Source: Bacillus sp. AFS055030
Lineage (GTDB): Bacteria; Bacillota; Bacilli; Bacillales; Bacillaceae_G
Direction of reading: 5' to 3'
DNA length: 32,018 nt
NCBI RefSeq assembly: GCF_002574545.1
Contig: NZ_NUGT01000024.1
Span: forward strand, 1-32,018
Shown here: piece after piece, positions 7,643 through 30,763 of the stretch
Position numbering within the stretch: the stretch's first letter is position 1
Layout of the letters: each line of letters starts with the position of its first letter
Notes under the pieces: generated by a model
What the model was told of the DNA's origin: nothing
The model's database searches: none
Seen by the model: only the letters and a program-made list of their open reading frames with translations
Translations under genes and position numbers: made by a program

Positions 7643-10600
7643 CTAGTTAAATTTCTTTTTCAATTCTTCTAACGTTAATTTACTTGTTTTTTCAACTGGT
7701 TTAATAGATGTAGGGAAATATGGATTTGTTGTCATAAAGTTCTTTTCAACATAATTGAAGTCCAAAATATCAACTACTCCATCTTTATTTAGATCTTCCT
7801 TCAACTTATCTCCAGTTACATGCGCTTTATTTGCAATAAGCTTTGCATCATAAATGTCGATTACATTATCTCCATTAATGTCTCCTGCCGCTGCAGTATC
7901 GGTATAAGCGAAATAGTCTATTCCTTGGATTTTTCCATCTACTAATTTACTTAATTTAACTTTTCTACTATATTGATAGTGTCCTGGTATGCTAACTACG
8001 AATGTATAATCATCTTTAGTGGCAGGAATATTTAAAATCGTCATATAGCCATGATCAGAAATATCCGCTTTATATTGTTTACCATTTTTATCTACAACAT
8101 ATGCTTTTACACCTAGCTTCGAATAATCTAAATCGTAGTTATAAAAGTTAACTGCTTCACCGTGAAAATACCCTTCTAGAACTGAGTGTTGGGCGATGAA
8201 TTTAAAGTGATTAGCATATGTCGGTAACGTAACCTTATTCCCTTCATTTGTTTGATAAGTTGACTCTTGATAATAAAAGCCACTCTCCCTCATATAGTTA
8301 AGGTCGCTCACTACCTTTAAATTAATATCTAACAAATCAATATTCCCATTAATTTTTACTGGTAAATTCGTCTTTTTATCCTTAATATCAACTGATAATG
8401 TTGTAATATTTGACCACGTATCCTCTGTTATTTGTGGTTTTCCAATGCGAATACTCCAATTATTTTTCTTCATTAACTCATCTAATTGTTTCGATTGCTT
8501 TACACTCATAACTTTGTAATAGTTTGGAATATTAATAGTTGCGTTAGCACTTGTTAAATTTTTCGCATTGTGGATCGTAAATATACTTGTAAACTCTGAA
8601 CCTAAAGTAACTTCTTTAGACTTTGTATTAATTGTTGCGTATCGGTCACCTTTATTAATAATCGTAAAATCAGGGAAAACCGGGTTTCCTGCTGTTGCAT
8701 AATCATAGGTATAAATTGCTACGTTCGTAGGGTAATTTGCATACTCTTCTGGTAATACACCAAATTTGAAGTCACCATTTTTAGTTGGGAAAAATTGTGC
8801 TGTCGGCCATGATGAATCCTGATAAGCATAAACTGAGTTTGCTTCTTGAGTTAGCTCATGTCCTCTACTCTTTAGATAATCGATTGTATCGTCGTATACA
8901 TTTCCATGGACCCAGTAAGCTTTGTAATCTTTACCATCCATTGGGTTTGTTTCAGTTGTTAAATCCGCATCGGAAATTTCATTAATGCCTGTCTTTTTAT
9001 CAAATACTACTTTTGGAGGGGTATTATCAATTACCATATCATTGTCAACTTTATAGGTTTTCCCAGCAGCATCTGTACCAATATAAGAAACAATGTATTT
9101 GCCTTCATCTAAAGGTTCATATTCAAGTGTTAATGGCTTATTTGGATCACCTGTAAATAATTTTGCATCACCAGAAAAGCCGTACATGATTAAGTAGTCT
9201 GTATCAACATTTGCACCTGCACAATCGAAAGTACCGTATAGGCCAATTGGTTTTCCAGATAGATCGCTAACAACAACATCGATTTTTTCCATCTCACTGT
9301 TAAATCTTACTGTAACTGGTGTAAAAGGTAGTATATCAGGATGGAAGTTACTTAAGTCACTTGTTATTGCATTCTTAAAGAAATCAACCTTTGCAAATCC
9401 ACTTGTCGTATACCTCACGTGGAACGGTATTTGGTACTCCTGTGTTTTCGATTCATTTTCTACATAAATATAGCCTTCATATATGCCAAATTCAGCAGAT
9501 TTTGGTATTGTTACTTTGGCGTCTATATTGACACTGTCATTTCCATTAACAGTTACTTCAGAAGGCAGTTCGAGTTTCACTCCATTTTTACTAGCATCTC
9601 TTGAAACCTCATCAATCGTTAAAAATTCTACTCTTGTATGATATGTTTCATTATTTTTGCTTAAATTTTTAATATTAATTGAAGTTGTACGATTTTGTTC
9701 CTCGCTTGTTTGTGTAATACTTCCGAATGGTAATGAACCTGATAGATCATCGATTTGCTTTTTAAAACCATTTTCATCCAATGTATACGATTTATTTTGT
9801 ACTTCTACTAAAGTCGTGTTATGAACTGCCTCGTAAGCATCTACTCGACCAGCTCCAACTTCGTTTACATGATATGTTCTTCCTTTTAATGGATCGGCTG
9901 TATTCATAAGTGCTGCTTTTACATCGGCAACAGTATATTCTGGGTGGGATTGTAGTAATAATGCAGCAACACCCGCAACATGTGGCGTAGCCATTGAAGT
10001 CCCATCCATGCTCGCGTAACTAGTTGAGTAATCCGTTTCTTCCCCAGGATTATTAATATATTCTGGTACAGTTGAGAAAATAGAAACACCTGGTGCCACA
10101 ACATCTGGTTTAATATCAAAATTATTACTTACAGGTCCTCGGGAACTAAAGTCTGCTAATACGTCACCAGATGTCATATTTGACTGTAAATCCGTCATTT
10201 TTAATTGAACATCCGGATTCTTAGTGAGCTCATCAACAATACTTTTCCCTTCCTCTTGACTCATTTTAAAAGTAGGTACATAACCAAAGTTTTCACCTAA
10301 AAAGAAAGGAATCTCTTCTTCTATATTATTATAAATTAACACTGCTACTGCTCCTTTTTCATGAGCACGTCGGATTTTTTCATCAAAAGATAAAGTACCA
10401 CGTGATATTAGCGCCACTTTGCCACTTACGTCTTTATTTGTATAATCCTCCTCGGCACCTATTCCTACATCTACAACATTCAATTTTTTATCAATAATAT
10501 TTAAGTAATCTTTTCCTAAACCGTGAGCCATTAACTCATTTTCAACTGAAACATTCCCTATACTCGTTTGTACAGTTGGTATATCTGTAGGAACATCGCT

Positions 10601-11797
10601 TGCTCCGACAGTAATAGCTAATGGTGACGAACCAGGAGAACCTAGTGACCCTGGAGTAGGACCTGCATTACCTCCCGCTACCACGGGAACTACCCCTTGT
10701 AAAGCTGCATTATTAATCGCTACTGCTGTAGCATCTAAAGAATAATTATTACTGTTTCCTAAAGAAAGATTAATTACATCCATCCCATCTTCTACAGCCT
10801 TTTCAATTCCAGCAATAATCCAAGAATCATATCCTGAACCATAATGACCTAAAACACGATATGCATATAAGTCAACATTTGGTGCTACGCCAGTCATTGC
10901 ATAATCAACGTTATTTCGCGGGTTTGATGCAATTGTACCCGCAACATGTGTTCCATGTTCAGTAACAAATGGACGGCCATCAATTTCTGCCGGCTCACCA
11001 GAAGCAGCTAAATCTGCAGGTGTAGATTCCATTGGATCCGAGTCATTATCTACAAAATCATAACCACCTTTATAAACATCCTTTAAATCCGGATGATTAT
11101 AATCAATACCCGTATCAAGAACTCCTACTTTAATCCCCTGGCCATTTATATCCTCGTTATGTAAACGATCTACACCTAAAAGTGGTAACGCTGGTGGCAC
11201 ACTTTTATTTTTTGTAGAAGAATTAACAGAAAGCTCTTTGATCGGTACACTAACTTTGTTATCCTTCCATACTCGTTTCACAACACCCGTTTGAAGAAGC
11301 AAATTAATTTGATCCGTCGGAATCGTCATTGCCACTCCATTGAATACATTTTCAAATGATTGTTTAATATGAAACTGATTTGTTTTCTTTTTAGCTTGCT
11401 GATTTACTTCCACTTTTTCGTTTTTCTTATTCCATAATTCCGTTAATCGCTTTTTAAAGAACTCTTGTTCACCTTTTATTTTTTCTTTCTTACCTTTAGA
11501 TACCTTTTTGATTTTCCCATTTTGATCATTTTCAATTGGTGAAGTTTTTAGTTCAACTATAATATTTGCAGTTTTATCTTTTAAGGATAATAAGCTTGGG
11601 TCAATCACAAAGCCTTCTTGAGGAGTTAAACGTTTAATCGATTGTCTTTGCTCATCTGTCAGTCCCTTTAAGATTGATTCTACAGAGTTCGACGTTGCAT
11701 AAGATTTTTGTTGAGGCATTAAATAAGATGTAAAAAAGCTTGTAGTTAATACACTTGTTACCATTACATTTAGCATTTTCTTATTTCTAATCTTCAT
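7643..11797 (-). CDS. Large secreted subtilase (S8, Vpr-like) with PA domain and C-terminal dockerin-like module
   Basis: A 1384-residue exoprotein with AGAAGGAG 9 nt before its ATG. Domains in order: signal peptide (1-34); I9-type propeptide (about 75-185); S8 catalytic domain with D228 (VLDTG), H281 (HGTHVAGT) and S601 (GTSMATPH); a PA insert (about 435-530) between His and Ser; Fn3/Ig-like segments (about 690-950); further beta-type regions; and at about 1302-1350 two calcium-loop repeats (DINGDNVID, DLNKDGVVD) typical of type I dockerins. The first two-thirds resemble minor extracellular protease Vpr. Its roles are probably protein degradation for nutrients or processing of secreted proteins. 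The divergent HTH-TPR regulator is a plausible controller. The dockerin is unusual because no cohesin protein is seen in the window; it may instead mediate calcium-dependent stability or self-association. Confidence 0.9.
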   Translation of the reverse strand: MKIRNKKMLNVMVTSVLTTSFFTSYLMPQQKSYATSNSVESILKGLTDEQRQSIKRLTPQEGFVIDPSLLSLKDKTANIIVELKTSPIENDQNGKIKKVSKGKKEKIKGEQEFFKKRLTELWNKKNEKVEVNQQAKKKTNQFHIKQSFENVFNGVAMTIPTDQINLLLQTGVVKRVWKDNKVSVPIKELSVNSSTKNKSVPPALPLLGVDRLHNEDINGQGIKVGVLDTGIDYNHPDLKDVYKGGYDFVDNDSDPMESTPADLAASGEPAEIDGRPFVTEHGTHVAGTIASNPRNNVDYAMTGVAPNVDLYAYRVLGHYGSGYDSWIIAGIEKAVEDGMDVINLSLGNSNNYSLDATAVAINNAALQGVVPVVAGGNAGPTPGSLGSPGSSPLAITVGASDVPTDIPTVQTSIGNVSVENELMAHGLGKDYLNIIDKKLNVVDVGIGAEEDYTNKDVSGKVALISRGTLSFDEKIRRAHEKGAVAVLIYNNIEEEIPFFLGENFGYVPTFKMSQEEGKSIVDELTKNPDVQLKMTDLQSNMTSGDVLADFSSRGPVSNNFDIKPDVVAPGVSIFSTVPEYINNPGEETDYSTSYASMDGTSMATPHVAGVAALLLQSHPEYTVADVKAALMNTADPLKGRTYHVNEVGAGRVDAYEAVHNTTLVEVQNKSYTLDENGFKKQIDDLSGSLPFGSITQTSEEQNRTTSINIKNLSKNNETYHTRVEFLTIDEVSRDASKNGVKLELPSEVTVNGNDSVNIDAKVTIPKSAEFGIYEGYIYVENESKTQEYQIPFHVRYTTSGFAKVDFFKNAITSDLSNFHPDILPFTPVTVRFNSEMEKIDVVVSDLSGKPIGLYGTFDCAGANVDTDYLIMYGFSGDAKLFTGDPNKPLTLEYEPLDEGKYIVSYIGTDAAGKTYKVDNDMVIDNTPPKVVFDKKTGINEISDADLTTETNPMDGKDYKAYWVHGNVYDDTIDYLKSRGHELTQEANSVYAYQDSSWPTAQFFPTKNGDFKFGVLPEEYANYPTNVAIYTYDYATAGNPVFPDFTIINKGDRYATINTKSKEVTLGSEFTSIFTIHNAKNLTSANATINIPNYYKVMSVKQSKQLDELMKKNNWSIRIGKPQITEDTWSNITTLSVDIKDKKTNLPVKINGNIDLLDINLKVVSDLNYMRESGFYYQESTYQTNEGNKVTLPTYANHFKFIAQHSVLEGYFHGEAVNFYNYDLDYSKLGVKAYVVDKNGKQYKADISDHGYMTILNIPATKDDYTFVVSIPGHYQYSRKVKLSKLVDGKIQGIDYFAYTDTAAAGDINGDNVIDIYDAKLIANKAHVTGDKLKEDLNKDGVVDILDFNYVEKNFMTTNPYFPTSIKPVEKTSKLTLEELKKKFN

Positions 11798-12205: not shown

Positions 12206-13426
12206 ATGTATGAGGGGAGAATCATAAAATATTATCGAGAAAAATCTCAAATGACACAAGAACAATTAGGGAAAGGAATTTGTTCTAGTACGCATATTAG
12301 TAAAATAGAAAGATCTCAAACTGAATATGCAAATGAAATTATAGCCCTTCTATCAGATCGACTTGGAATAAAAATCGAAAATGAGATTTTAAAATTAAAA
12401 AATATTAAAATGCGTATAGATAGTTGGCAGCAGTCTATTGTAATGCAGCTATTTGACGAAATAGAAAAAATCAACATAGAACTTGAGCAAGAAGAGTTAA
12501 TTCAAATTTCAAATCATATTAATCAATATAAATTACTTCGCATCCGATATTTATTAATGCGTAATTTAATGAGTGAAGCAAAAGAGCTCATTAATGAAAT
12601 TAAAAAAATAAAGCACAAATTGGCACCTTATGAACGAAATCTTTTTAGACATGTGCAAGGTATTTATCACTTAACGAACCATGAACCTTTACTTGCCATT
12701 CAAGTTTTAAAGAAAATTAATATTGAAGAATATGCAAATGAGGAATATTATTATCACTTAGCTTCTGCTTATCATTCAAATGATTTTCCTGTTATGGCAT
12801 ACTTCTATGCTGATAAAGCCCGACAGTATTTCAAAAGTATTAATTCCTATCTTAGGGTAATCGACTCCGAAATGCTTATGCTAATACAAGTTAAGGATAA
12901 TGAAGAATTTTCTGAGACGATTAAAAGATTTGAAAACTTAATCCAAAGCTGCGAAATTTGTAGATCATCGGACCGAAAAGCAAGGGTATATCATAATTTA
13001 GCTTTTGAATATTATCGAAGAAAAAATTATGAGTTAGCAAAAAAATATTATTTTGAGTCTATGAAATTGAAGGATTCCAATTCGATCCCATACTTACTTT
13101 CCTTAGAAGGATATATACGAAGTTCCTATTATGGAAAACTTTTATCTAAAGGTGAATTATTACAATATGTAGGGAAAGGGTATGATCTTGCTACCAAAAA
13201 AAATGACAAACTTTTTATTAATTTATTCATCTTATTAGACTTATTAATCTTAGAAAAAGAACAAGAATATCACCAATATTTGGCAGATCATTCATTACCA
13301 TTTTTTAAAAAAGTAGGATTCGCTTATCTAATCAATCAATCGGAAAAAGAATTGTTTAACTATTATATTAAAGGCAAACAAACCCGTAAAGCATTAAATA
13401 TGGCAAATACATTAATAAATCAGTAG
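12206..13426 (+). CDS. XRE-HTH/TPR regulator (RRNPP-like, NprR/PlcR-type architecture)
   Basis: A 406-residue protein with AAAAGGAG about 8 nt upstream of ATG. Residues 5-60 are an XRE helix-turn-helix (IIKYYREKSQMTQEQLGKGI, then SSTHISKIERSQ). The rest (about 95-400) is all-helical with TPR-like repeats, for example AKELINEIKK, PVMAYFYADKARQYF and AFEYYRRKNYELAKKYYFES. This layout is that of RRNPP regulators such as NprR and PlcR, cytoplasmic receptors for secreted signalling peptides. In B. cereus NprR controls an extracellular protease; here the regulator is divergent from a large secreted protease, so a similar link is plausible. No canonical pro-peptide gene follows it; the repeat element begins at its stop codon. 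Peptide binding is inferred from architecture only. Confidence 0.75.
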   Translation: MYEGRIIKYYREKSQMTQEQLGKGICSSTHISKIERSQTEYANEIIALLSDRLGIKIENEILKLKNIKMRIDSWQQSIVMQLFDEIEKINIELEQEELIQISNHINQYKLLRIRYLLMRNLMSEAKELINEIKKIKHKLAPYERNLFRHVQGIYHLTNHEPLLAIQVLKKINIEEYANEEYYYHLASAYHSNDFPVMAYFYADKARQYFKSINSYLRVIDSEMLMLIQVKDNEEFSETIKRFENLIQSCEICRSSDRKARVYHNLAFEYYRRKNYELAKKYYFESMKLKDSNSIPYLLSLEGYIRSSYYGKLLSKGELLQYVGKGYDLATKKNDKLFINLFILLDLLILEKEQEYHQYLADHSLPFFKKVGFAYLINQSEKELFNYYIKGKQTRKALNMANTLINQ

Positions 13427-13751: not shown

Positions 13752-14543
13752 TTATTTTTTAGCTGGCATCGCTTCTTCAAGTGCAAGGTGATTCATATAT
13801 AAATAAGTAGCGTATTCTTTTCCAACGTATCTTAAATGCCATGGTTCATAGTGATATTTTGTGATCTCCACTTTATCTTCAGGGTAACGAATGATAAAGC
13901 CGTATTCATGTGCGTGCTCCGCTAACCATGTACCTTCAGGCGTTTTGGCAAAACCTACTTCTAACTTATTACCAAATGCCGGTGATGAAACATCCATCGT
14001 TAGTCCAGTTTGATGTTCACTCGTTCCTGGATATGCGCTGTATGCTTTAGTCCATTCCTCACCGTGTACAGAAAGATAATTATTGTATAATGAAACTTGT
14101 CGATCATACGAACGATATCCAGAAATTGCTGTTAATGTATAACCATCAGCTGATGCACCAGCAAATAACTTCTCTAATGCATGTCCAGCTTCACTTCTCA
14201 TTCTAGTTTTTTCTTTTATTGCCCCATTTAATGGGATTGATGGATAGATAAGATCACCTGGTTCATAACCATCTGGTAACTTTCGATCTTTATTCACTAA
14301 CACTAAATTTGAATCAACGTTTAAAACTTCTAATAATCCAGATTCATCTTCTTTTGTCGTTTTATAATAATCTGGAAAACTAAGTACCATATCATTTTTA
14401 ACTTTGGCATTCTTTTTAATAACAATTGTTTTAGGTTCTTTGTTTTGTTCATAAAGAGTACCTGCAACACCAGCTACTAAAACGAAAGAAATTGCAATCC
14501 CCAAAATTGGTTTTTTTCTACGATTTTTCATACTTCTGAACAA
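13752..14543 (-). CDS. D-alanyl-D-alanine carboxypeptidase, M15/VanY-LdcB type
   Basis: A 263-residue protein. The start is a TTG at 14543: AGGAGG sits 9 nt upstream, whereas the next ATG (14531) is too far away. Residues 12-30 are an uncleaved signal anchor after a basic N-terminus. The M15B peptidase domain (about 100-255) has SGYRSYDRQ, SEHQTGLTMD (zinc ligands H177 and D184) and HYEPWHLRYVG (catalytic E233, zinc ligand H236). Such enzymes trim D-Ala or tetrapeptide ends of peptidoglycan stems outside the membrane; B. subtilis YodJ is similar. It appears monocistronic, between the repeat element and its own upstream region. The exact substrate (DD or LD bond) cannot be decided from sequence. 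Confidence 0.88.
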   Translation of the reverse strand: MFRSMKNRRKKPILGIAISFVLVAGVAGTLYEQNKEPKTIVIKKNAKVKNDMVLSFPDYYKTTKEDESGLLEVLNVDSNLVLVNKDRKLPDGYEPGDLIYPSIPLNGAIKEKTRMRSEAGHALEKLFAGASADGYTLTAISGYRSYDRQVSLYNNYLSVHGEEWTKAYSAYPGTSEHQTGLTMDVSSPAFGNKLEVGFAKTPEGTWLAEHAHEYGFIIRYPEDKVEITKYHYEPWHLRYVGKEYATYLYMNHLALEEAMPAKK

Positions 14544-15383: not shown

Positions 15384-16958
15384 TTAACTATGCAAGTTTC
15401 CTTTTAGCCAAGGTCGATTCCGATAGTGACCGATTGGGATTTGAATTAAACTCGTTTTTCCCATCTTTTCTAATCCGTATATCTCATCGCATAATTTTGT
15501 ATTGTATCCAAGAAGTGGATGCCCTCCCATTCCTAATGCTGATGCGGCTATTAGTAAACGCTGAACCATTATGCCAGCTTCCATTTGTTGAATTCGATAG
15601 CCTCTATAACTATGTGTTGATTTTAAATGTTCCGTATTACCCATTACATGTATACAAATTGGCACTTGGAATAAATTAACGGTAGGGGCATTCATTCCAG
15701 ACTGGAGCTGTATACGATGATCTCCTAATTTCATTTGTACTAGCGTATGAGTACGATCATCATAATAATAAGCTCCATTGTTAATCCCTTCAACGTTATA
15801 CAAACATAAATATAATTTTGGCCTGTTCTTACTATTTTTAAAGGATCGATCTAAATCATTTATATAGGAGAAGGATGCTGTCGCCTCTTTAAGTAATGTT
15901 GCAAGTTTTATTTGACTAATAGAGCTTAAAACAAAGTCAAGCTCAGGTGAAAACCGTTCTTTACATATCGCGGCAAAATCATAGGATAGACGTTCTACTT
16001 TAGGTAATATAATTCGATGCCGTTCATCTACAGGATCAACAGTTTCGTCAACTTTTCTAAATGATTGAGTCGATTCAATCATCGATACTTTATTGAGTTT
16101 AATTAGCATCGGAAACTCTCTAATCTTTTTTGATTTTATTAAATATTTATGTGAAACTGCTTGTAACTCTTTACTTAGATCGATTGAATAATGATGTTTA
16201 CTTTTTGCATTATCTTTAGACATCAAGCTAGTTACTTCAATAGAGAGTGGAATGATTCCGTAAACACTTTCCTCACGTTCGTTTATGCCGATTAAATGGT
16301 TGATTGCTTGATCGAGAAACTGGTAATATACTCCAGCCTTAAGCCCAAACCGTTTAGCCGCCTCTAAAATCTGTCCAATTAGCACACCGCAATCTAGCCC
16401 TTGAAGACGATAAGAAAAATTATTATATTTGAAGAAATTTTTCCAAAACATTGTTGAAATAAAAATAGTACAAAAACACTTTGGAAGATCGCATCTATCT
16501 CCTAAAGCTCTTGACACATAAGAATCAAAATTTCCTTCTCTTAATAAAACTAAGCAATGTCTAGCAACATCATAATGATAGATCCCTGAACAGACATGTT
16601 CGGACTTCAAATATAAATACAACTCATTCGGATACAATCCTCCACCAGAAGGAATGAATCTTCTGTTTGAAGACATCATATTAACCATTTCATTGGAACC
16701 AGAAGCAATTGCTGTTTGAGCAACTTGGGTTAATCCATATACATACCATAGAAAATAGCCAATTTCGTCTATATTTGGCTCAGATGCGTTCCTGATTTCT
16801 TTTAAGGATAGTGGCACGTTAAGAGAAAGTGGAATAGTAGGTAAATCTTTATAAAGCTTATAAGTTAGTGGGGCATCCTCCCAATCTACTTCCCAATCTG
16901 ATTGATTAGCCTTTTCGATATCAAAATGAAGATTGTGTAGAAATGTTTGTAAACTCAT
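15384..16958 (-). CDS. hcaB: SagB-type FMN-dependent azoline dehydrogenase (tandem nitroreductase domains)
   Basis: The start is ATG 16958 (GGAGG 8 nt upstream); the GTG at 16967 lies inside that ribosome binding site. The product has 524 residues. The first nitroreductase-like half (about 40-260) carries PSGGGLYPNELYLYL (from 103), the hallmark of the SagB family. The second half (about 310-524) is a related but diverged copy (GAYYYD, then LLIAASALGMGGHPLLGYN) lacking that motif. SagB enzymes oxidise thiazolines and oxazolines, made by the YcaO enzyme, to aromatic thiazoles and oxazoles using FMN. It is the last gene of the operon, 24 nt after the cyclodehydratase. The hca symbol is by analogy with Bacillus heterocycloanthracin clusters. 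Confidence 0.85.
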   Translation of the reverse strand: MSLQTFLHNLHFDIEKANQSDWEVDWEDAPLTYKLYKDLPTIPLSLNVPLSLKEIRNASEPNIDEIGYFLWYVYGLTQVAQTAIASGSNEMVNMMSSNRRFIPSGGGLYPNELYLYLKSEHVCSGIYHYDVARHCLVLLREGNFDSYVSRALGDRCDLPKCFCTIFISTMFWKNFFKYNNFSYRLQGLDCGVLIGQILEAAKRFGLKAGVYYQFLDQAINHLIGINEREESVYGIIPLSIEVTSLMSKDNAKSKHHYSIDLSKELQAVSHKYLIKSKKIREFPMLIKLNKVSMIESTQSFRKVDETVDPVDERHRIILPKVERLSYDFAAICKERFSPELDFVLSSISQIKLATLLKEATASFSYINDLDRSFKNSKNRPKLYLCLYNVEGINNGAYYYDDRTHTLVQMKLGDHRIQLQSGMNAPTVNLFQVPICIHVMGNTEHLKSTHSYRGYRIQQMEAGIMVQRLLIAASALGMGGHPLLGYNTKLCDEIYGLEKMGKTSLIQIPIGHYRNRPWLKGNLHS

Positions 16959-16982
16959 TCCAATCACCTCCTATAGCACCAC

Positions 16983-18926
16983 TTATGGGAACGGGTGTGG
17001 ATATGGATTGAGCTGCTCCGGCTTTAGCGGCTTCTTCGTATAGCCCAATTTAACAGGTACTTTTAACACTCGATCAAGTCCATTTAATCGTTTTAGATGA
17101 TGGCCAAATGTCATAGGCAACATCCCTGGAATTAAAACTTTTACACAAGATAATCCATTTCTTTTGATTTCAGGTGTAGTTTGATCGACTACAATCACAT
17201 CAAGATTTAATTGCTTAAATACTTGAAGAATATCTTTTAAATCATTCGTCAAATCCAGATGGTTTGTATCCCATTTAAATTCTTCCTCAAAAGTCTTTAA
17301 TGGACGGTTATCATCTAATAAAAACTTCAGACGATCTTCTGCTTGTCGTAACCCATATAACATCCCATGATCATCCATTTGTTTAACGAGATTATGATCT
17401 AAAAGCATTTTCATAATTTGGGCATAATTTTCTTCAAACTTTTTATCCAATGTTAACATCATTCCAGCTAACTCATGTACTGCGCTTTTAACCGCCCTAA
17501 CTGGATCAAGATGTGCACCTGCAGCACAAATGAGATTTAATCCATGTTCTTTTCGATTTTTTGCAATGGCAACAATACTTGGGATTCCATTCTCCATCGT
17601 CGAATTAAATAAATGTAGATCATATCCTCCAACTAAGCGCATTCGTTCAATCATTAAATCGAGTTCTTGATCATTAGCCGATTTTGGATCAAGCTTTGGA
17701 AGGGGTAACTGAGCATACCAAGTCATTAGGAATGAATCTCGTTCAACAATTTCCAAAATACCGTAAAATATAGCTTCTTCTAAACTACCTCCTAATGCAC
17801 ATCCATTGGAAGTTTCATACACATAACCGCGTCCACATCCTAGACTATAGTATGAAAGCAACTCCGGTACAAGAATCGGCTCTTCCTTCATAAATGAATA
17901 ACCCCATACCCAATCAATCTTCCGTTTAGGATTAAACGCCTTAAATGGAAAATGAGGCAGAGCATACTGTTCTTTCGAATGAGTACCGACACTTTCTGGA
18001 TTCATTGCATAATCTTTTACGTTGTTATAACTATCATGTACTACTGTTTTTTTTCCCCGTGGAGTAAGGCCACAATACCTTTCTAACCCTTCTAAAATGG
18101 CAGTTAATTCACTAGATTCATATGAGAGCGTACGTCCCGCTGTTCCTTCATCCCCTTGTATTAACGGTAGGTTTACAACTACATCTGCAAATGGCGTGGT
18201 TAGATCGTATGCCTTCCCATTTAAAAAACCAGTCTTTTGGCCTAAATAGTCATTAACTAACACTTTTTTTAATTCATCCATCGAGCGACTACGATAACTA
18301 GTTGGAGAAACTTTCATACTAGGCTCAAGTGAAATAATTGCTAAATCAGCAGAATCATCTTCTAACTCACCACAAACCGGACATAACGGATTCGGTAAAA
18401 AAAAGTGATTAGAGCTTTTGAATGTTTTCATATTTAATAAAAAGATCCGTTCCTCTAGACGAGTTTCTTTACCATTCATAAATTTATCTACTTCAGCAGC
18501 AATTAAGTAAGCCATCTGTAAAAGTCCCGTTCTTGTACTCCATACATCATCTGACCTTCCATCAGATTCTACTATCTGATGATCTATTTCTAGCATTTCT
18601 CTACGCTCTCTACCAGCCATTAAACGTCTAAAATCGGCACATTTTATACATCCTTTTTGTCCTGGATAGACTAAAGGTCCGATTACCCCTTCCCCAAATG
18701 AAACACAAGCGCGTAACCATGGAACTGTTCCTAATTTGAAGACTTCATCTACTTTTTCATAAATTTTAGGGTTCCATGCGTCATCTAAAACAAGTAGTAA
18801 ACTAGTATCCTCAGAAACTTTCGACGCTAGATCTTTTTGTTGAACTATTTTATATTTATTTATCAGGATTTCAGATGTGTACTTACTTAATAATCCTTCT
18901 CCAAATATGGCAACCGTTGAATTCAA
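16983..18926 (-). CDS. hcaD: E1-like/YcaO fused cyclodehydratase of TOMM biosynthesis
   Basis: A 647-residue protein starting with TTG at 18926, overlapping the upstream stop by 4 nt (TTGA), with AGAGGTG about 8 nt upstream. Residues 1-195 are an E1-like domain with a four-cysteine zinc site (GCIKC, C93 and C96; LCPVC, C182 and C185). Residues about 215-647 are a YcaO domain. ATP-binding elements are visible in SSELTAILEGLERYCG (271-286) and SLEEAIFYGILEIVERD (381-397), and the protein ends in the Pro-rich tail NPYPHPFP expected of YcaO cyclodehydratases. It converts Cys (and Ser/Thr) in the precursor core to azolines using ATP. The overlap with the F protein gene implies translational coupling, matching F-dependent cyclodehydratases. 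Confidence 0.9.
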   Translation of the reverse strand: MNSTVAIFGEGLLSKYTSEILINKYKIVQQKDLASKVSEDTSLLLVLDDAWNPKIYEKVDEVFKLGTVPWLRACVSFGEGVIGPLVYPGQKGCIKCADFRRLMAGRERREMLEIDHQIVESDGRSDDVWSTRTGLLQMAYLIAAEVDKFMNGKETRLEERIFLLNMKTFKSSNHFFLPNPLCPVCGELEDDSADLAIISLEPSMKVSPTSYRSRSMDELKKVLVNDYLGQKTGFLNGKAYDLTTPFADVVVNLPLIQGDEGTAGRTLSYESSELTAILEGLERYCGLTPRGKKTVVHDSYNNVKDYAMNPESVGTHSKEQYALPHFPFKAFNPKRKIDWVWGYSFMKEEPILVPELLSYYSLGCGRGYVYETSNGCALGGSLEEAIFYGILEIVERDSFLMTWYAQLPLPKLDPKSANDQELDLMIERMRLVGGYDLHLFNSTMENGIPSIVAIAKNRKEHGLNLICAAGAHLDPVRAVKSAVHELAGMMLTLDKKFEENYAQIMKMLLDHNLVKQMDDHGMLYGLRQAEDRLKFLLDDNRPLKTFEEEFKWDTNHLDLTNDLKDILQVFKQLNLDVIVVDQTTPEIKRNGLSCVKVLIPGMLPMTFGHHLKRLNGLDRVLKVPVKLGYTKKPLKPEQLNPYPHPFP

Positions 18927-20869
18927 ATCGAGCTCACCTCTCTTAACAAGACACCATAAACTCCCGCAAGTTCATCTACATTAATCGATTCAAGCATAAA
19001 CTCCAATATTACTAATTCCTTATTATTCTGTTTTAAACTATCTATAGCTGATCCTACTAATTGAGTATGTTTAGTACGATTAAATTCTAGGAACATCATT
19101 TCTGATACTTGCTGTTCTTCCACTAAAACTGATGAACTTTGGATCGCTTTTGATGCAAGTAGTGGGGTTTTATTTTGTGATTCCTTAAGTACTAGTTTTA
19201 GTGCCTCTTGTAGGGCCATTGTTAGATTTAAACCAACACTTCTAAACCAGCCTTTTTGTGTTCCAATCCAGACTACTGGAAATCCACAAATCTCTTTTCC
19301 TAATGCTATTTTTGGAGATTCCTGTATTGTGTTTATTGTTTGTAAATAAAATTTTGCACAATCATCTTCTATTTTTATCGTTTTTATTTCCTGAATATGA
19401 TGTTTCTGAACACCCGTTTGTTTATCCAGCTTATTTGATAAATATTTTTGCAGAGCTCTACAAATACTTTCTGAAAAAGTTTGACCAGTAGCTATTGCGA
19501 TGTATTCCCCAGGTTCAATACACTCTATGACATCTGACTCAGAATTCATAATAAGTTGATGAGCTATTTGAGATACATACATTTCAACCCCAGTAAGTCC
19601 TGCCTCTTTTCGTGCTTCTTCATGCGTTAGTTCAGTACAAATCGTACTCGTTAGTAGTTTTACTGGTCCTTCTGTAAGAGGATCTACAACTTGTATCCGA
19701 CACTGCGCTAAAGGAAGTTGATTTAATTCACCTTCATCCCAAACATGAAATAATCCAGTTTCTTGTGAATTGAACTGACCTAAGTAAGTTAATAACTTAC
19801 TTTGATCACCTATAGGTTTGGTTTGCTCTAACAATTCAGCAAAATTCCGAACAATCTTAGCTTTCGCTTTCCCGTCCACTAGCGGGTGAGGAGAAAATGA
19901 ATGCCAACTGCCTTCCAGCGTCTCTTGGTTAATAATATAAACTTGATTAGTCTTTTCTGTTTCGCGTGACTTTGTAATATCCTTAAATAACTCGAACACC
20001 ATTATATTTGCCAACATTGCTGATGTCATAGAAGACAATGGCTGGTTCGTTTCTTCTTCACAAAGTATGTTTTGATGCACACTTCTCCATGCCGACTCGA
20101 AGCAAACATCAGAATTTGGAGTCACTAGAGGTCCAGCCATACAAATCTTTGGAGAAGAAATGGCTGGGATAAACCTTTTTTTCTCTCTTTTACAAATCTC
20201 ATTTAGCAATTTCAGTTCATAAACACGATCATCTTCTGATACGTATAAAATCGAATCAAAAGTAGATACAATTTCTTGTAAAGAAAGCTTCTTTCTCTTA
20301 ATAAATTCAACTTCGACTTCACGATCAGTTCTCCGAGCGTTGTCTACAATTTCTTTTATTCGTTTTTCATCTGTATTTTCCGTATTCGTTATTAAAAGAT
20401 GGAATTTTGCTAACCCCGACTCTAATAATGCTGAAACTAACGAAGTGACAATTGATCCAGAACCAATTGCCAATATTTTGGATTGGCGATAAGTTTGAAA
20501 ACGATAAGAACCAGAATCCCCAAAACAATTTAAAAACTCAATTTGACTTGCATACTTCTCTAAAATATCTTTCGATAATTGATGTGGGTGATCCTTACTT
20601 ACATCCCGTGCAAAGCCATTGTTATATAAAATCTCACCAATTTCATATACTCTTTCTCGATATTGGTCAGGCAAGCCATTTGTTAAAATTTCTAATGAGT
20701 GTTCACCATTAAACATAGGAAGTAACTTTTCAATCCACTGGTAAATAGATGCACCTTCCATCCGAAAAGAACTTAAGTTATTCCTAAAATAAACACCTCC
20801 ATTCAAATCAGGTACAAAAAAAGTATCTCGATTAACCTTTAGACGTGCTGATGGATCCAATTTTGACAT
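18923..20869 (-). CDS. hcaF: Ocin-ThiF-like F protein (leader-peptide binding, azoline biosynthesis)
   Basis: The preferred start is ATG 20869 (AAGGGG 9 nt upstream; product opens MSKLDPSARLKVNRDTFF), giving 648 residues. Reading from ATG 20929 adds 20 residues with only a weak AGGA. The N-terminal about 90 residues look like a leader-binding winged-helix domain (FRMEGASIYQWIEKLL). An E1/ThiF-like Rossmann region follows at about 130-300 (SKILAIGSGSIVTSLVSALL, GSGS at 136-139). The C-terminal part is specific to thiazole-bacteriocin maturation proteins. In studied heterocycloanthracin systems the F protein binds the precursor leader and presents it to the YcaO partner. It follows the precursor gene after a hairpin and overlaps the YcaO gene by 4 nt. 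Confidence 0.82.
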   Translation of the reverse strand: MSKLDPSARLKVNRDTFFVPDLNGGVYFRNNLSSFRMEGASIYQWIEKLLPMFNGEHSLEILTNGLPDQYRERVYEIGEILYNNGFARDVSKDHPHQLSKDILEKYASQIEFLNCFGDSGSYRFQTYRQSKILAIGSGSIVTSLVSALLESGLAKFHLLITNTENTDEKRIKEIVDNARRTDREVEVEFIKRKKLSLQEIVSTFDSILYVSEDDRVYELKLLNEICKREKKRFIPAISSPKICMAGPLVTPNSDVCFESAWRSVHQNILCEEETNQPLSSMTSAMLANIMVFELFKDITKSRETEKTNQVYIINQETLEGSWHSFSPHPLVDGKAKAKIVRNFAELLEQTKPIGDQSKLLTYLGQFNSQETGLFHVWDEGELNQLPLAQCRIQVVDPLTEGPVKLLTSTICTELTHEEARKEAGLTGVEMYVSQIAHQLIMNSESDVIECIEPGEYIAIATGQTFSESICRALQKYLSNKLDKQTGVQKHHIQEIKTIKIEDDCAKFYLQTINTIQESPKIALGKEICGFPVVWIGTQKGWFRSVGLNLTMALQEALKLVLKESQNKTPLLASKAIQSSSVLVEEQQVSEMMFLEFNRTKHTQLVGSAIDSLKQNNKELVILEFMLESINVDELAGVYGVLLREVSSI

Positions 20870-20973
20870 CTTTTTCAACCCCTTCGATCCAGTGAGTTGT
20901 ACATTGAAATTCATAAATACTTTCTTCATAATCCTATGTATATTCTGTATTCCTTATGTCATAACCTAACTAG

Positions 20974-21003
20974 ATGGCCCCTACAAAGATTAGTAGGGGC
21001 CAT
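20974..21003 (-). terminator. Hairpin between precursor and modification genes
   Basis: A perfect 11-bp stem (ATGGCCCCTAC, 20974-20984; GTAGGGGCCAT, 20993-21003) with an 8-nt loop but no U-tract on either strand. It lies between the precursor stop and the F gene. It probably acts as a partial terminator or mRNA-stabilising structure that makes precursor mRNA exceed enzyme mRNA. Confidence 0.6.
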
Positions 21004-21044
21004 GTTTGTCTAGATGGACAAATAGTTTTTATGAAACAGTACAA

Positions 21045-21266
21045 TTAACGGTGACAGCGACCGCATCCTCCGCAACGGAAACAGCCTCCGCATCCTCCGC
21101 AACGGAAACAGCCTCCACATCCAAAACAAGTAAAAATAGGGAAGAAACAAGCAAAACAAACTCTAGCATCGTAATTTTGATACTGATTATAATCCCATGG
21201 AACTGCTTGACTAGCTTGAAATTGATCAACGTTTAATTGTTGAAGTTCTCTTTGAAAATCATACAT
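21045..21266 (-). CDS. hcaA: Heterocycloanthracin/sonorensin-family TOMM precursor peptide
   Basis: The start is ATG 21266 (GGAGG 8 nt upstream); the ATG at 21284 overlaps that ribosome binding site. The product has 73 residues. The leader (about 1-35) reads MYDFQRELQQLNVDQFQ followed by AVPWDYNQYQNYDARVC, the family pattern. The core (about 34-73) contains 11 cysteines, mostly as CGGC and CFRCGG, with one Thr and no Ser, so up to 11 thiazoles could form. The units are repeated (9-residue period). It stands alone before a hairpin, then the F, YcaO and SagB genes. The mature product is probably an antibacterial thiazole-rich peptide; its activity and cleavage site cannot be read from sequence. 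Confidence 0.9.
   Translation of the reverse strand: MYDFQRELQQLNVDQFQASQAVPWDYNQYQNYDARVCFACFFPIFTCFGCGGCFRCGGCGGCFRCGGCGRCHR
21067..21120. repeat. 27-bp tandem repeat inside the precursor core
   Basis: Units 21067-21093 and 21094-21120 agree at 26 of 27 bases and code for the same 9-residue Cys/Gly/Phe/Arg block. The repeat is in frame, so unit gain or loss would lengthen or shorten the core without a frameshift. Confidence 0.9.
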
Positions 21267-21284: not shown

Positions 21285-21461
21285 GAAATTTGAAAGCGAA
21301 TAAAAACATACCGTATTTAAATAAAATCAATACGATTCCTCAATTTGAATCTACTAAAACGCAGACTCTCAACAATAAAATATGTTGAAGACTTGGGCAT
21401 TGTTACCGATTCAATTGCCCAATTTATTACTCCTTAGTAAAACGATGACCTGATTGCGTAC
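21285..21461 (-). promoter_or_regulatory. Upstream region of the TOMM precursor with two hairpins
   Basis: Two stem-loops precede the precursor. One has arms CAACA/TGTTG (about 21370-21386). The other has arms TTGGGCA (about 21393) and TGCCCAA (about 21416), with extra TTG/CAA pairing. A possible sigma-A pair on the minus strand (TTGAGG, 17 bp, TTAAAT) lies closer to the gene but is weak. Roles are uncertain. Confidence 0.3.
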
Positions 21462-22372: not shown

Positions 22373-23821
22373 ATGGATAAGGCTAGTTTACGAAGATTAC
22401 ACTTAATCGACATTTTATGTAGTCAAGAAAAATGGTTTAAAACGGAGGAACTTGCTAAAAATTTAAATTGCACTGAGAAAACAATTCGAACTGATATACA
22501 ATTTATCAATGCAACTTTCCCTGAAGGTTGGCATATTGAAACGATAAAAGGAAAAGGAATTTATATAAATAATCCAATTAATTCCTCGCTTGATCAAGTT
22601 CGGGCACTTTTTGTTAAAAACTCTTTATCACTTCAAGTAATCATGTTTATTTTAATCAAAGAGATTGAACACATTAGTGATTTAGGAAAAGTTTTATATA
22701 CACATCACAATACTGTTTATAAAATTCTCGAACGAGTAGACACTTTATTGAAGTCTTATAACTTAAGTTTAAAGCGGGCACCTCTTGAAATTGTAGGTAA
22801 TGAATTTCAAAAAAGAATCTTATGTTGTGACGTATTGTATGATCTATATTCCCATACGAATAAATGGCCTTATGATTCCATATCGTTTTCTATCATAAAA
22901 AAAGTAGTTACAAGGTCAGCAAATGAAAACAATTTACTTATATTTACACCTACGATCTATCGACTTATTTATTATGTTGGTACGATGCTTCAAAGAATCG
23001 ATCGGGATATACAATTGGATTTAAATCCTGCTAACAATATAAAGGATTCGAAGTTTTTTTTAGTTGCAACTTCTATATGCATACAGATTGAAAAAATTTA
23101 TAAAGTAACAATACCATTAAATGAAATATACGCTCTTTCAATAGTAATATCTGCATCCCCTTATTTTTCTAGCGATAATGAACCTCAAGATAAAATATTA
23201 AATAGCTACCATAAAAAATCAGAAAAACAATATATTGAATTATACGAGCTCGTTAGGATGCTCGAAAAAAATCTTAGTATAGAATTACATGATCAAAATG
23301 ATTTTATTCTCACTCTTCAAAAACAATTTAAAGCCTTTTCCCAAGTTCTTTTTTTAAACAGTAGAATCGATCGATCTTGTCTCATTTCTGAATACGTTAA
23401 AAATCGTTATCCGGAGTTATTTAATAAAGTAAAAACTGTATTTCGTAATTGGTGTAATGTTCTTTCATACCCAGAAGTAAATAATGAAGTAATTGCTAAA
23501 ATCACATTAAATATTCAAGCAATCATCAATAAATTATCTTTAGAAAAAAAAAGAGTACTGCTATTAAGTAGTGAGGGTTATGGCGTTCAACATTATATAA
23601 AGGTAAAACTAATAAAAGAATTTGGAGATACAATCCAATTTGTTGAACCCCGAAGCGCCAATTTTAGCCCTGAAACGATTAGTGAATTACGTTTGGACTT
23701 TATTATTGCTGATTTTCAAATTGATTTAGATCTCGTTCCCATTGTGGTAATTAGTTCTACTCTTTCAAAGCGCGATATAAATCATATTGCCCATTTATTA
23801 AATGAATTTCATTTTAAATAA
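22373..23821 (+). CDS. AtxA/Mga-type PRD-containing transcription regulator
   Basis: A 482-residue protein with TAGGAG just before the ATG. Residues about 5-75 form a Mga-type winged helix-turn-helix (EKWFKTEELAKNLNCTEKTI) ending in KGKGIY. A second helix-turn-helix region follows (about 85-150, SDLGKVLYTHHNTVYKILER). About 165-380 are two PRD-like helical domains. About 390-482 is an EIIB-like end (RVLLLSSEGYGVQHY). Length and order are those of AtxA of B. anthracis (475 residues) and related PRD regulators, controlled by PTS phosphorylation of PRD histidines. It is co-directional and 19 nt apart from an HD-GYP gene. Target genes are unknown; the adjacent TOMM cluster is a candidate. Confidence 0.8.
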   Translation: MDKASLRRLHLIDILCSQEKWFKTEELAKNLNCTEKTIRTDIQFINATFPEGWHIETIKGKGIYINNPINSSLDQVRALFVKNSLSLQVIMFILIKEIEHISDLGKVLYTHHNTVYKILERVDTLLKSYNLSLKRAPLEIVGNEFQKRILCCDVLYDLYSHTNKWPYDSISFSIIKKVVTRSANENNLLIFTPTIYRLIYYVGTMLQRIDRDIQLDLNPANNIKDSKFFLVATSICIQIEKIYKVTIPLNEIYALSIVISASPYFSSDNEPQDKILNSYHKKSEKQYIELYELVRMLEKNLSIELHDQNDFILTLQKQFKAFSQVLFLNSRIDRSCLISEYVKNRYPELFNKVKTVFRNWCNVLSYPEVNNEVIAKITLNIQAIINKLSLEKKRVLLLSSEGYGVQHYIKVKLIKEFGDTIQFVEPRSANFSPETISELRLDFIIADFQIDLDLVPIVVISSTLSKRDINHIAHLLNEFHFK

Positions 23822-25382: not shown

Positions 25383-26747
25383 TTAGTCTGTTTTTTGGTA
25401 AATTAAATGCAGACCTATTTCCTTTAGTGAGAGAAGTTTGGTCCATTTGATTAAGTTTTGTATGATGGCGGTCATCAAAATTTGTCTTTTTACTTTGTGA
25501 ACTCCTCGGTATCGTGCGTAACGTAAGCCGTGGAGTTCTTTACTTTGCGCAAAACTTAACTCAACGGTTGAAGGTCTTACTGACTTTAATATCTTTCCTC
25601 GAATTGATAGTCTTTGTTCCCTTAATTCATCGTAAATTGGTTGATTAACTGAAATTCTTAAAACCCGATCATCTTTTTTCGTGAATGGACAATTAAAACA
25701 GCTACCTTTGTCAGGCTTAAACTCATGATAGCCTTGTCTAGTAGTAGTTTTATAACGAAAAGGAACACCACAAGGACAGGCGTATAGGTCTTCATTTACT
25801 CTTTGAAAATTAGACTTTCTACATTCTTTATGTTCCTTACTTGGAAATCTACGATGAGAGATATAAGCAAATATCCCACGTTTGAATAAACCTTCGGCAA
25901 ATCTTGAATTATAGTAGCCCGCATCAACAGCGATTTCGTTGGAATAATATCCAAGCCTATCTTTTAATGAATCTAACTGATCTAATAAAACTCTATGCCC
26001 AGGAACATTCGCACTCGTGACATGAGTATCGATTATAAAATTATGTAAAGAATCAACTACTCGGTGCTCAAAATATGCAAAGCGACCTCGTTCATCATGT
26101 TTAACTGATAATCTTGCATCACCATCAACGGGACTAAGTAAAACGCGTTTCAGTTCAGCTTTATTTCCTTTAGGTTTAAGTAATTTAATACCGTGTTTTT
26201 GTCTACTCTCGTTTACTTTTTTTAAAGTATCTAGATCTTCCTCAATGATGACTTCTTTGATCCATACATCACGTTTTCGTTTATTTGCATTCGCTTTTAA
26301 TTCTGTTTCATCTGCCACCCAAGTTTCATTCGCAATAAATCCATCTATATTAATTAAATTTACTACATAGTGAAAGAAAGCTTCCCAAACCTCGTTATTT
26401 TTCAAACGATGATTAAGAAACTTTGAAATAGTCGAATGACAAGGTATTTTTTTATCAGGTGAAATCCCTAAAAACCAACGATAAGTAGCATTTTGTTTGA
26501 CTTGTTTACAAGTGAATCGAACAGAGCGAAACCCTTCAATATATTGTATCAATAGTATCTTTACTAGTATCAGTGGATCAATTGATGGTCTGCCAACAGT
26601 TGACCGATAGAAAGGTTCAATAAGTTGATATAAATAATTCCAATTAATTGCCTTATCAATTTTTACAACATGGTGCTCCTCATCAATCATATTCTCATAA
26701 AGTTTGCGATTTTTTGCGATGTCTAAGTTCTCTTGATAGTAGTACAT
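25383..26747 (-). CDS. IS1182-family transposase
   Basis: The start is ATG 26747 with AAGGGGG 7 nt upstream; a longer reading from 26855 would run into the flanking terminator outside the IS. The product has 454 residues. The N-terminal part (about 20-120) is a DUF772-type domain (GRPSIDPLILVKILLIQYIE, CHSTISKFLNHRL). A DDE-type catalytic region follows (WVADETELKANANKR, IAVDAGYYNS). The C-terminal section has paired cysteines (ACPCGVPF, CFNCPF) as in DDE_Tnp_1_6 proteins. No frameshift or stop is seen, so the element may be active. Confidence 0.92.
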   Translation of the reverse strand: MYYYQENLDIAKNRKLYENMIDEEHHVVKIDKAINWNYLYQLIEPFYRSTVGRPSIDPLILVKILLIQYIEGFRSVRFTCKQVKQNATYRWFLGISPDKKIPCHSTISKFLNHRLKNNEVWEAFFHYVVNLINIDGFIANETWVADETELKANANKRKRDVWIKEVIIEEDLDTLKKVNESRQKHGIKLLKPKGNKAELKRVLLSPVDGDARLSVKHDERGRFAYFEHRVVDSLHNFIIDTHVTSANVPGHRVLLDQLDSLKDRLGYYSNEIAVDAGYYNSRFAEGLFKRGIFAYISHRRFPSKEHKECRKSNFQRVNEDLYACPCGVPFRYKTTTRQGYHEFKPDKGSCFNCPFTKKDDRVLRISVNQPIYDELREQRLSIRGKILKSVRPSTVELSFAQSKELHGLRYARYRGVHKVKRQILMTAIIQNLIKWTKLLSLKEIGLHLIYQKTD

Positions 26748-26794
26748 AAAAAATCCCCCTTGTAGTAATAATTTTCCTACAAAGGGGATTTTTT
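26748..26794 (-). promoter_or_regulatory. Insulating hairpin covering the transposase ribosome binding site
   Basis: 18-bp arms (26748-26765 and 26777-26794) with one G-U-type mismatch lie immediately before the ATG. On the minus strand the second arm contains AAGGGGG and ends in six T. In an mRNA entering from outside the IS, the stem would hide the ribosome binding site and could terminate transcription. A transcript started inside the loop or second arm would escape. Such protection against read-through is known from other IS families. Confidence 0.65.
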
Positions 26795-26844
26795 CTAAAA
26801 TAATATGCTTAGATCTATTGACTAAGTTGTTTTTCAACACTCTG

Positions 26845-26877
26845 AGAAAAGACATTGTAGTTCACAATGTCTTTTTT
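26845..26877. terminator. Right copy of the duplicated terminator, now ending the iron-uptake operon
   Basis: Identical to 25276-25308 over 33 bp (34 if the following C is counted). On the minus strand it lies 8 bp beyond the stop of the last permease gene and ends in TTTTCT, so it serves as that operon's terminator. Confidence 0.88.
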
Positions 26878-26884
26878 CTATGGA

Positions 26885-27895
26885 TTAAGCCTTTTTTAGA
26901 ATTAAGTAGACAAAATAAGGTCCACCGATTAGGGCTACTATAATCCCTGCTGGTATTCCTTCTGGATCGACTAAGTTTCTTCCGATTGTGTCGGCAACTA
27001 ATAGTAATAATCCACCAATTAAAATTGCAATCGGAATAAATAATTGATTTCTTGGTCCAACTAAGCTTTTGGCAATATGTGGTGCCATTAATCCGATAAA
27101 CGCTATTCCTCCTGTTACAGAAACAGCAGATGCTGCTAATGCGACTGCTGCTAACATTAAAACAATTCTTTCCTTTTCTAATGAGACTCCTACCCCAATT
27201 GCAACAGGCTCATTTAAATTAAGAAGGTTCAATATATTTGCCTTATATAGGGTAAAAGGAATTAATACAATTAACCAAGGTAAGAATGCCCAAATAAACG
27301 GCCAATCTGTTCCCCATATATTGCCTGCTAACCATTTTGCAATAAAATCTACTTTAGCACGTTCTGCAGATGAAATTAATACAATCATGATGCCTGAAAG
27401 AGCCATCGAGAAACCAATACCTACTAAAACTAATCTGATAGGTTGTAAACCTGAATTTTTCTTATAAGAAAATATGTAAATAATCATTGCTGTAGCAACA
27501 GCCCCACAAAAACCAACGATTGGGATTAAATAGACAAACGATCCTGCTTCAATTGGAAAGTATAAAAAGAATACTGTGATAGCGACACCTGCACCAGCGT
27601 TAAAACCTAGTATTCCGGGCTCAGCCATTTCATTTCGTGTTACACCTTGCAAAATTGCACCAGATAAAGCTAGTGCCATTCCCGCCATTAAAGTTATCAA
27701 CATTCTAGGTAATCGAATTGAAAAGATTACAAACTCTTCTTTAAATGTACCATCCCCTAAAAAGGTTGGAATTAATCTACTATATGGTATTGCTGAAAAT
27801 CCCATTCCCATTCCAATAAACATTGTTAAAAGAATAAGAATAAAGAGTATCAACAGAATTAGCCTTTGTTTTCTAAGGACAGTAGGATGGATCAT
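26885..27895 (-). CDS. Ferric-siderophore ABC transporter permease (FecCD family, FhuG-like)
   Basis: A 336-residue membrane protein with about nine to ten helices. FecCD-family signatures include FSIRLPRMLITLMAGMALAL, GAILQGVTRNEMAEPGILG, FIGLMAPHIAKSLVGPRNQ and DPEGIPAGIIVALIGGPYFV. The GLMAPH loop contacts the ATPase. It pairs with the other permease to form the channel through which ferric siderophore enters the cytoplasm. The start ATG overlaps the upstream stop by 4 nt (ATGA), with GGAGG inside the upstream gene, so the two are translationally coupled. It is the last gene of the Fur-controlled operon. The siderophore cannot be named from sequence. Confidence 0.92.
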   Translation of the reverse strand: MIHPTVLRKQRLILLILFILILLTMFIGMGMGFSAIPYSRLIPTFLGDGTFKEEFVIFSIRLPRMLITLMAGMALALSGAILQGVTRNEMAEPGILGFNAGAGVAITVFFLYFPIEAGSFVYLIPIVGFCGAVATAMIIYIFSYKKNSGLQPIRLVLVGIGFSMALSGIMIVLISSAERAKVDFIAKWLAGNIWGTDWPFIWAFLPWLIVLIPFTLYKANILNLLNLNEPVAIGVGVSLEKERIVLMLAAVALAASAVSVTGGIAFIGLMAPHIAKSLVGPRNQLFIPIAILIGGLLLLVADTIGRNLVDPEGIPAGIIVALIGGPYFVYLILKKA

Positions 27896-28902: not shown

Positions 28903-28969
28903 TAGCCTCTCATCTTCTCTTTATAGAATGTCTTATAGACTACATAAAATTATTGGTCAATTTCTAAAT

Positions 28970-29005
28970 AATAAGAGTAGGAATAATAGCATCCCTACTC
29001 TTATT
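28970..29005 (-). terminator. Stem-loop between binding-protein and permease genes
   Basis: A perfect 12-bp stem (AATAAGAGTAGG, 28970-28981; CCTACTCTTATT, 28994-29005) just after the lipoprotein stop. There is no good U-tract on the minus strand, so it is probably a partial terminator or a 3'-end stabiliser favouring binding-protein expression. Confidence 0.65.
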
Positions 29006-29009
29006 TTAG

Positions 29010-30726: not shown

Positions 30727-30763
30727 ATACTGACCTCCATTCATTAATATTTTAACCATTAGT

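Follow-up and report, generated by a model that had tools for sequence, protein, structure and literature searches.

How can a thiazole-rich peptide be released by a producer whose type of gene cluster shares neither an exporter nor a leader protease nor an immunity gene, and at what stage of that producer's life is it made? The question is raised by a four-gene locus of the heterocycloanthracin/sonorensin (HCA) family of thiazole/oxazole-modified microcins (TOMMs), found in a stretch of 32,018 nucleotides (nt) from Bacillus sp. AFS055030 (contig NZ_NUGT01000024.1, positions 1 to 32,018; hereafter the window). The DNA ahead of the precursor gene and ahead of the gene for its leader-binding partner points to an answer, namely that the mother cell probably makes the HCA peptide at a late stage of sporulation, from sporulation-type promoters. 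On balance, the sequences also favor the broader view that HCAs are developmental products, their enzymes controlled by sigma-E and their precursor by sigma-K and GerE, and that they would be spore-borne ribosomally synthesized and post-translationally modified peptides in need of no dedicated export, protease or self-immunity.

The four genes encode the precursor, a ThiF-like F protein, a fused C/D cyclodehydratase and a SagB-type dehydrogenase (B), and all are open reading frames (ORFs) on the minus strand (Table 1). Membership in the HCA family is near certain and agrees with the original prediction, which placed the precursor next to its enzymes in a TOMM cluster of this family, since all four proteins score above the curated cut-offs of their hidden Markov models (HMMs). 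Sequence matches relate F residues 35–109 to PbtF (8t19), the C/D protein to TruD (4bs9), LynD (4v1t) and MusD (7u58), and the B protein to a putative nitroreductase (3eo7) and McbC (6gos). The matched YcaO part begins at residue 263–269 of the window C/D protein and at 410–420 in TruD, LynD and MusD; the roughly 150 fewer residues ahead of it correspond to a shortened N-terminal C part. According to the accessible text of Cox 2015 (PMC4603692), HCA clusters contain a fused, truncated C/D protein reliant on a leader-binding F protein, together with B; C/D, F and B are the only genes common to all HCA clusters, and both the binding of the leader by F and the F-dependence of the truncated C/D were reported in vitro for the family.

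The first line of evidence is an element upstream of the precursor, in DNA on which the original prediction made no comment. Similar DNA, about 120–190 nt upstream of the precursors, was found to recur across different genera. It was evaluated in 92 genomes (one precursor per genome; 20 families and 31 genera), which comprise 89 of the 90 genomes of the order with a precursor match plus G009, G014 and G015. G290 was excluded for its partial match (E 4.8e-5) and lack of an F match, and the second precursors of G014, G015 and G330 were left uncounted. The pattern AC-N17-CATA, 60–260 nt upstream of the precursor, was present in 78 of the 92 genomes, which represent all 20 families and 29 of the 31 genera; 200 dinucleotide-shuffled sets contained it 3.5 times on average and at most 9 times. 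The consensus over 29 genera reads AAAaTaGGC..Tt..ATCAGTAACAAtacCCaa..at..ttCATA.TTTGTTGagGAGAgT. In 91 of the 92 upstream regions, a matrix trained with the scored family left out gave a score higher than any of 20 shuffles, and the discriminating base of the −35 was C in all 92 at the best matrix position, although the matrix itself favors C. When 23 loci, which total 933,616 nt over the two strands, were scanned with a matrix whose training included the families of the scanned loci, 21 matches above 14 were obtained. Each lies in front of a precursor, and one of these precursors is the unlinked second copy of G014; the best match elsewhere reached 13.5. No match above 12 was seen in L010, L011 and L013, the Brevibacillus, Paenibacillus castaneae and Alicyclobacillus loci.

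The geometry of this element is that published for sigma-K. In the accessible part of Eichenberger 2004 (PMC517825), sigma-K promoters have a −35 of 5 nt, a gap of 14–16 nt and a −10 of 10 nt, and the −10 is common to sigma-K and sigma-E promoters, which are told apart by position 4 of the −35 (C for sigma-K, T for sigma-E). In our alignment, which uses the published coordinates and not the letters of the logo, these read as nnACA plus nCATA and therefore as AC-N17-CATA, the spacing of the HCA element. The element also extends beyond the order. Among 40 precursor loci outside it (from 32 of 63 genomes of the class), 32 have AC-N16..18-CATA, where shuffles predict 6.5, and 13 combine it with a TRGGY box, where 0.25 would be expected. 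The promoter architecture reaches further than the exact sequence of the element. Where a genome has several precursors, separate copies have an element each: it accompanies both copies in G015, the unlinked copy in G014, the two loci of G462, four out of five in G567 and all three examined in G577. G567 and G577, both from the class set, have six TIGR03601 matches each, scattered over contigs or positions, and represent multi-precursor species.

A box of the GerE type lies upstream of the sigma-K-like promoter in the window and fits RWWTRGGYNNYY, which we take to be the GerE consensus. In 38 of the 92 genomes, from 11 families, a box of this type precedes the AC at a distance of exactly 21 nt, an arrangement seen in no shuffled set. 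The promoter itself was compared with that of dpaA (spoVF), a gene presumably under sigma-K control. Among 30 dpaA loci of the same order, AC-N16..18-CATA was found in 25, with N17 in 24 of them (3.0 expected), so that the dpaA promoters share the architecture of the HCA element. The two differ in that the GerE-type box at −21 accompanied none of the 28 AC-N16..18-CATA sites of the dpaA loci, whereas the HCA element has an additional conserved block, GTTGagGAGAGT.

A second conserved element lies ahead of the F gene. It was evaluated in 88 genomes, G193, G284, G380 and G181 being excluded because their precursor is not adjacent to F. AT-N17/18-CATA was present in 87 of them (mononucleotide shuffles: mean 19.6, maximum 26 of 88). 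In 71 of the genomes, from all 20 families and 30 genera, there is a stricter version built around an (A/G)GAC(A/G)A block, against a shuffle mean of 0.02. This strict form occurred in none of the 92 precursor upstream regions. With GGACAAG assumed as the SpoIIID consensus, this element is reminiscent of a sigma-E promoter with a SpoIIID-like block. Between the precursor and F there is also a strong hairpin; the 105-nt stretch that holds it folds with −32.4 kcal/mol (z −3.92), and the fold of this intergenic region had z < −1.5 in 22 of 31 genera. Because the hairpin and a second promoter-like element separate the precursor from F, the single operon proposed for the four genes in the original prediction is doubtful.

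These elements suggest the following course of events. Early on, the mother cell would express F, C/D and B from a sigma-E-type promoter; later, sigma-K with GerE would turn on the precursor, as the conserved DNA indicates. The leader would then be bound by F, on which the truncated C/D depends in vitro in this family (Cox 2015). By the chemistry of the family, C/D would convert up to 11 cysteines to thiazolines and B would oxidize these to thiazoles, with a change of −20.03 Da each and of −220.3 Da at most; the shift of about 20 Da per azole expected earlier for this locus agrees with this. Since genes for export, leader removal or immunity are not shared by the clusters of the family, the product would be freed by lysis of the mother cell or laid on the spore, and it may act as an antimicrobial carried with the spore. 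A match to the sigK model was found in 70 of 70 precursor-bearing genomes of the class, compared with 268 of 398 overall, and the genome of the window itself has sigK, cotZ and dpaA matches. In biofilm cells of B. cereus, putative HCA genes and sporulation genes were both increased, as stated in the accessible part of PMC6962202; this co-increase is compatible with the sporulation reading and not specific to it.

Several observations weigh against the mother-cell reading. Phylogeny confounds the co-occurrence with sigK, and no more than 177 of the 268 sigK matches reach the curated cut-off. The strict form of the upstream element was absent from 14 of the 92 genomes (GC for AC in 10, a spacing of 16 in 2 and a different form in 2). 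Other AC–CATA spacings, though rarer than N17, are frequent within it, with N12 in 40 and N14 in 18 of the 92, because the element contains additional AC pairs. Its conservation continues beyond the −10, into the GTTGagGAGAGT block, and so exceeds the needs of a bare promoter. Outside the order, the order-trained matrix recognized only 14 of the 40 loci, and in two genomes of family f17 with F and a precursor-like ORF, AC-N16..18-CATA was absent from the 248–260 nt examined. The reading also presupposes the GerE consensus, the SpoIIID consensus and sigma-K control of dpaA. All 13 genomes of the genus, the window included, are without the GGACAAA block in the F element; they retain ACATA...ACATAGG with AT-N17-CATA ahead of F. 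The sigma-E assignment is consequently weaker in the window than the sigma-K assignment.

The control promoters weigh on the same side. AC-N16..18-CATA was found upstream of 2 of 16 CotX-type genes (4.35 expected), AC-N17-CATA lay within 1500 nt of 4 of 19 CotZ genes with a paired GerE-type box in none, and the upstream regions of sigK showed the sigma-E pattern in 7 of 20 and GGACAA in 1 of 20. A box–promoter pair of the expected form was thus not found in the CotX and CotZ controls, and the box of the window is judged by the GerE consensus assumed above. The dpaA control was the fourth tried and was picked after those with CotX, CotZ and sigK had given no support. In the accessible part of Eichenberger 2004 (PMC517825), GerE-dependent promoters are set aside from the sigma-K consensus set; that such promoters fall outside the consensus, and that sigK has another promoter form, is our guess at why the controls failed. 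Two neighboring genes count against a product that dispenses with immunity and protease: the 182-residue membrane protein encoded upstream of the precursor is possibly an immunity protein, and the subtilase near the cluster could in principle remove the leader. Finally, sonorensin is described in the accessible part of PMC4544038 as a bacteriocin that kills by membrane damage, which suits a secreted agent as well and requires no spore.

A tentative alternative with the same mother-cell origin is that the product is a component of the spore coat, serving as an ultraviolet screen, in metal binding or in cross-linking, and no antibiotic. The precursor's presence in all 13 genomes searched from the genus, its sigma-K/GerE-like control and a low-complexity core with a variable number of cysteines (9–19) would all fit such a role. 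Nevertheless, the precursor was found in 90 of 397 genomes of the order, while dpaA was found in 195 of 199 tested, so HCA is not a general coat part, and the killing reported for sonorensin (PMC4544038) speaks for an antimicrobial.

It is rather unlikely that the locus encodes an ordinary HCA bacteriocin, made by vegetative cells in stationary phase from a sigma-A promoter and exported by a transporter encoded elsewhere, with the upstream DNA acting as some other regulatory site. The name of the family and the reported activity of sonorensin (PMC4544038) agree with this, as do the reach of the upstream conservation past the −10 and the distances that can separate genes of the HCA family (PMC2674419), whereas the element has the published geometry of sigma-K and the spacing of dpaA promoters of the same order, and the set common to all HCA clusters stops at C/D, F and B in the accessible text of Cox 2015 (PMC4603692). 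More doubtful still is the view that the upstream element serves chiefly as an RNA leader, or as the target of a regulator specific to the cluster, and resembles sigma-K and GerE sites by chance. A GAGAGT block is conserved downstream of the −10, about 110 nt separate the −10 from the start codon, and the CotX, CotZ and sigK controls were negative, all of which this view would accommodate; the occurrence of AC-N17-CATA in 78 of 92 genomes and of the same spacing in 24 of 30 dpaA loci argues against it. A silent or decayed cluster, as the C/D gene of G003, split into ORFs of 187 and 444 residues, might suggest, is very improbable given that all four window ORFs are open and that F, C/D and B are 77–95% identical to the window proteins in the nine closest relatives.

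The promoters of HCA genes are undescribed in Haft 2009 (PMC2674419), where the family was introduced. In the literature searched, no publication was found tying HCA to sporulation control, an absence of little weight since subscription literature lay mostly outside the search; nor was a sporulation-type promoter architecture, of the kind the alignments suggest, found described as conserved across an entire TOMM family. Clusters of the HCA type are common, with 254 in the accessible part of Cox 2015 (PMC4603692). If the precursor is controlled by sigma-K and GerE and the enzymes form a sigma-E operon, this would offer one answer to the lack of a shared exporter or immunity gene and would explain why some genera carry HCA in every genome. 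It would also allow a precursor and enzymes that lie far apart, as in B. cereus, to cooperate, each with its own mother-cell promoter, and the compound would then have to be sought in spores and mother-cell lysates, beyond the culture fluid.

The cluster itself is ordinary, being another member of the HCA family. The precursor starts at an ATG (21266) preceded by GGAGG; an alternative ORF of 79 residues begins 18 nt earlier and overlaps the ribosome-binding region. Counted from its first cysteine, the core consists of 11 C, 10 G, 7 F and 4 R, plus single A, P, I, T and H residues, and lacks Ser, which bears out the count of 11 Cys, no Ser and one Thr made earlier for this 73-residue peptide. 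Nine of its ten Cys–Cys spacings equal 3, giving the Cys-Xaa-Xaa repeats that are the hallmark of the HCA family (Haft 2009, PMC2674419). Comparison of the precursor with family members, proposed as a check in the original prediction, gave 52.6 bits with TIGR03601 (curated cut-off 35) and a single occurrence of the exact sequence among the 92 precursors; the core motif turned out to be shared. CGGCFRCGG, which had been thought possibly new, was found in 33 of the 92, from 4 families, and an unusual thiazole density is not supported within the family, where 9–19 cysteines occur with a median of 14, against 11 in the window. Over the 92 precursors, 923 of 1175 Cys–Cys spacings equal 3. Because the motif, the cysteine counts and the spacings recur in this way, the window core is a variation on the Cys-Xaa-Xaa theme of the family. 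Among orthologous loci, the best tblastn match to the precursor was L034, with 95% identity over 73 residues.

The heterocycloanthracin of the B. cereus group (Haft 2009, PMC2674419) likewise has a TIGR03601 leader, a Cys-Xaa-Xaa core and a homologous enzyme trio, but its precursor lies far from the enzymes, whereas that of the window is adjacent to them. The B. licheniformis HCA locus and sonorensin bear the family name of the window cluster. In the B. licheniformis locus the precursor lies beside the maturation genes, as in the window (PMC2674419); its core consists mostly of Cys-Trp-Ser triplets (PMC2674419), unlike the Cys-Gly-Gly and Cys-Phe-Arg triplets of the Ser-free window core. Other F-dependent TOMM cyclodehydratases, including those of thiopeptides, show the same truncated fused C/D relying on a ThiF-like F protein, according to the accessible text of Cox 2015 (PMC4603692). 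Thiopeptide clusters differ in that no ring-forming gene was recognized beside the window cluster in profile scans, and the window core has no Ser.

The nearest relatives of the window F protein in named records were found in Gottfriedia and Bacillus sp. strains. All 13 genomes searched in the genus had a TIGR03601 match. At wider ranks the tally was 18 of 19 family genomes, 90 of 397 order genomes and 70 of 398 class genomes. The F protein was found in the same 18 family genomes as the precursor and in 110 of the 397 order genomes, 89 of which also had a precursor match by comparison of the lists. Eight of the 21 order genomes with F and without a TIGR03601 match were examined, and seven have a Cys-rich, precursor-like ORF beside F; upstream of these, AC-N17-CATA was found in four, the GC variant in one and neither in two (G191 and G216). 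The Cys-rich ORFs beside F in L162, L163 and L164 (genomes of family f46), missed by TIGR03601 and each with AC-N17-CATATTTTAATATGA upstream, are a divergent branch of the HCA family.

Table 1. Features of the HCA locus and its surroundings, in window coordinates.
Feature	Position	Strand	Remarks
HCA precursor gene (leader + Cys-Xaa-Xaa core)	21266-21045	-	73 aa; TIGR03601 match
F protein (ocin_ThiF_like), leader-binding partner by family	20929-18923	-	668 aa; TIGR03693 717.9 bits (cut-off 561.9)
Fused C/D cyclodehydratase (YcaO)	18926-16983	-	647 aa; TIGR03604 416.2 bits (219.25), TIGR03882 145.2 (36.9)
SagB-type dehydrogenase (B), two nitroreductase-like stretches	16967-15384	-	527 aa; TIGR03605 212.4 bits (78.4)
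Sigma-K-like promoter, AC-N17-CATA	21381-21403 (AC 21403-21402; CATA 21384-21381)	-	conserved spacing; window TAACA and CATATTTTA
GerE-type box AATTGGGCAATT	21413-21424	-	fits RWWTRGGYNNYY, assumed GerE consensus; upstream of sigma-K-like promoter
Sigma-E-like promoter ahead of F gene, ACATA ... CATA, AT-N17-CATA	20935-20959	-	conserved form
Strong hairpin between precursor and F gene	20976-21001	-	terminator or stabilizer; no clear T run after hairpin in window
27-bp tandem repeat, 2.8 copies, 89% matches	21047-21122	-	within core-coding part of precursor
182-aa hydrophobic membrane protein upstream of precursor	22063-21515	-	no Pfam or PHROG match
Large subtilase with PA domain	7643-11797	-	downstream of cluster in several genus loci
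VanY-type carboxypeptidase	13752-14543	-	downstream of cluster in several genus loci
HTH_3 regulator with TPR-like repeats	12206-13426	+	flanks cluster in most genus loci
Mga/PRD regulator	22373-23821	+	flanks cluster in most genus loci
Transposase (DUF772/DDE)	25383-26855	-	some 4 kb beyond cluster
Binding protein, ABC ATPase and two FecCD-permease-like membrane proteins (by eye)	26885-30759	-	siderophore-type uptake system

Beyond the genus, only the precursor, F, C/D and B, of the window proteins tested, recur at orthologous loci; other flanking genes recur within the genus only, save ABC-ATPase matches of 28% in two loci. The 182-residue membrane protein, whose gene is followed by a terminator-like hairpin, had matches of 59–77% identity in 9 of the 12 other genus loci and so evolves faster than the enzymes; no match was found in the remaining three nor at loci beyond the genus. 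The transposase is probably a recent insertion in this strain, as it is unmatched in the orthologous loci of the relatives, and the siderophore-type uptake system is partly missing or shortened in G003 and G005. The split C/D gene of G003 (L036, 11801-12364 and 12409-13743) corresponds to a single ORF of 647 residues in its relatives and may reflect either a disrupted cyclodehydratase gene or a fault in the assembly.

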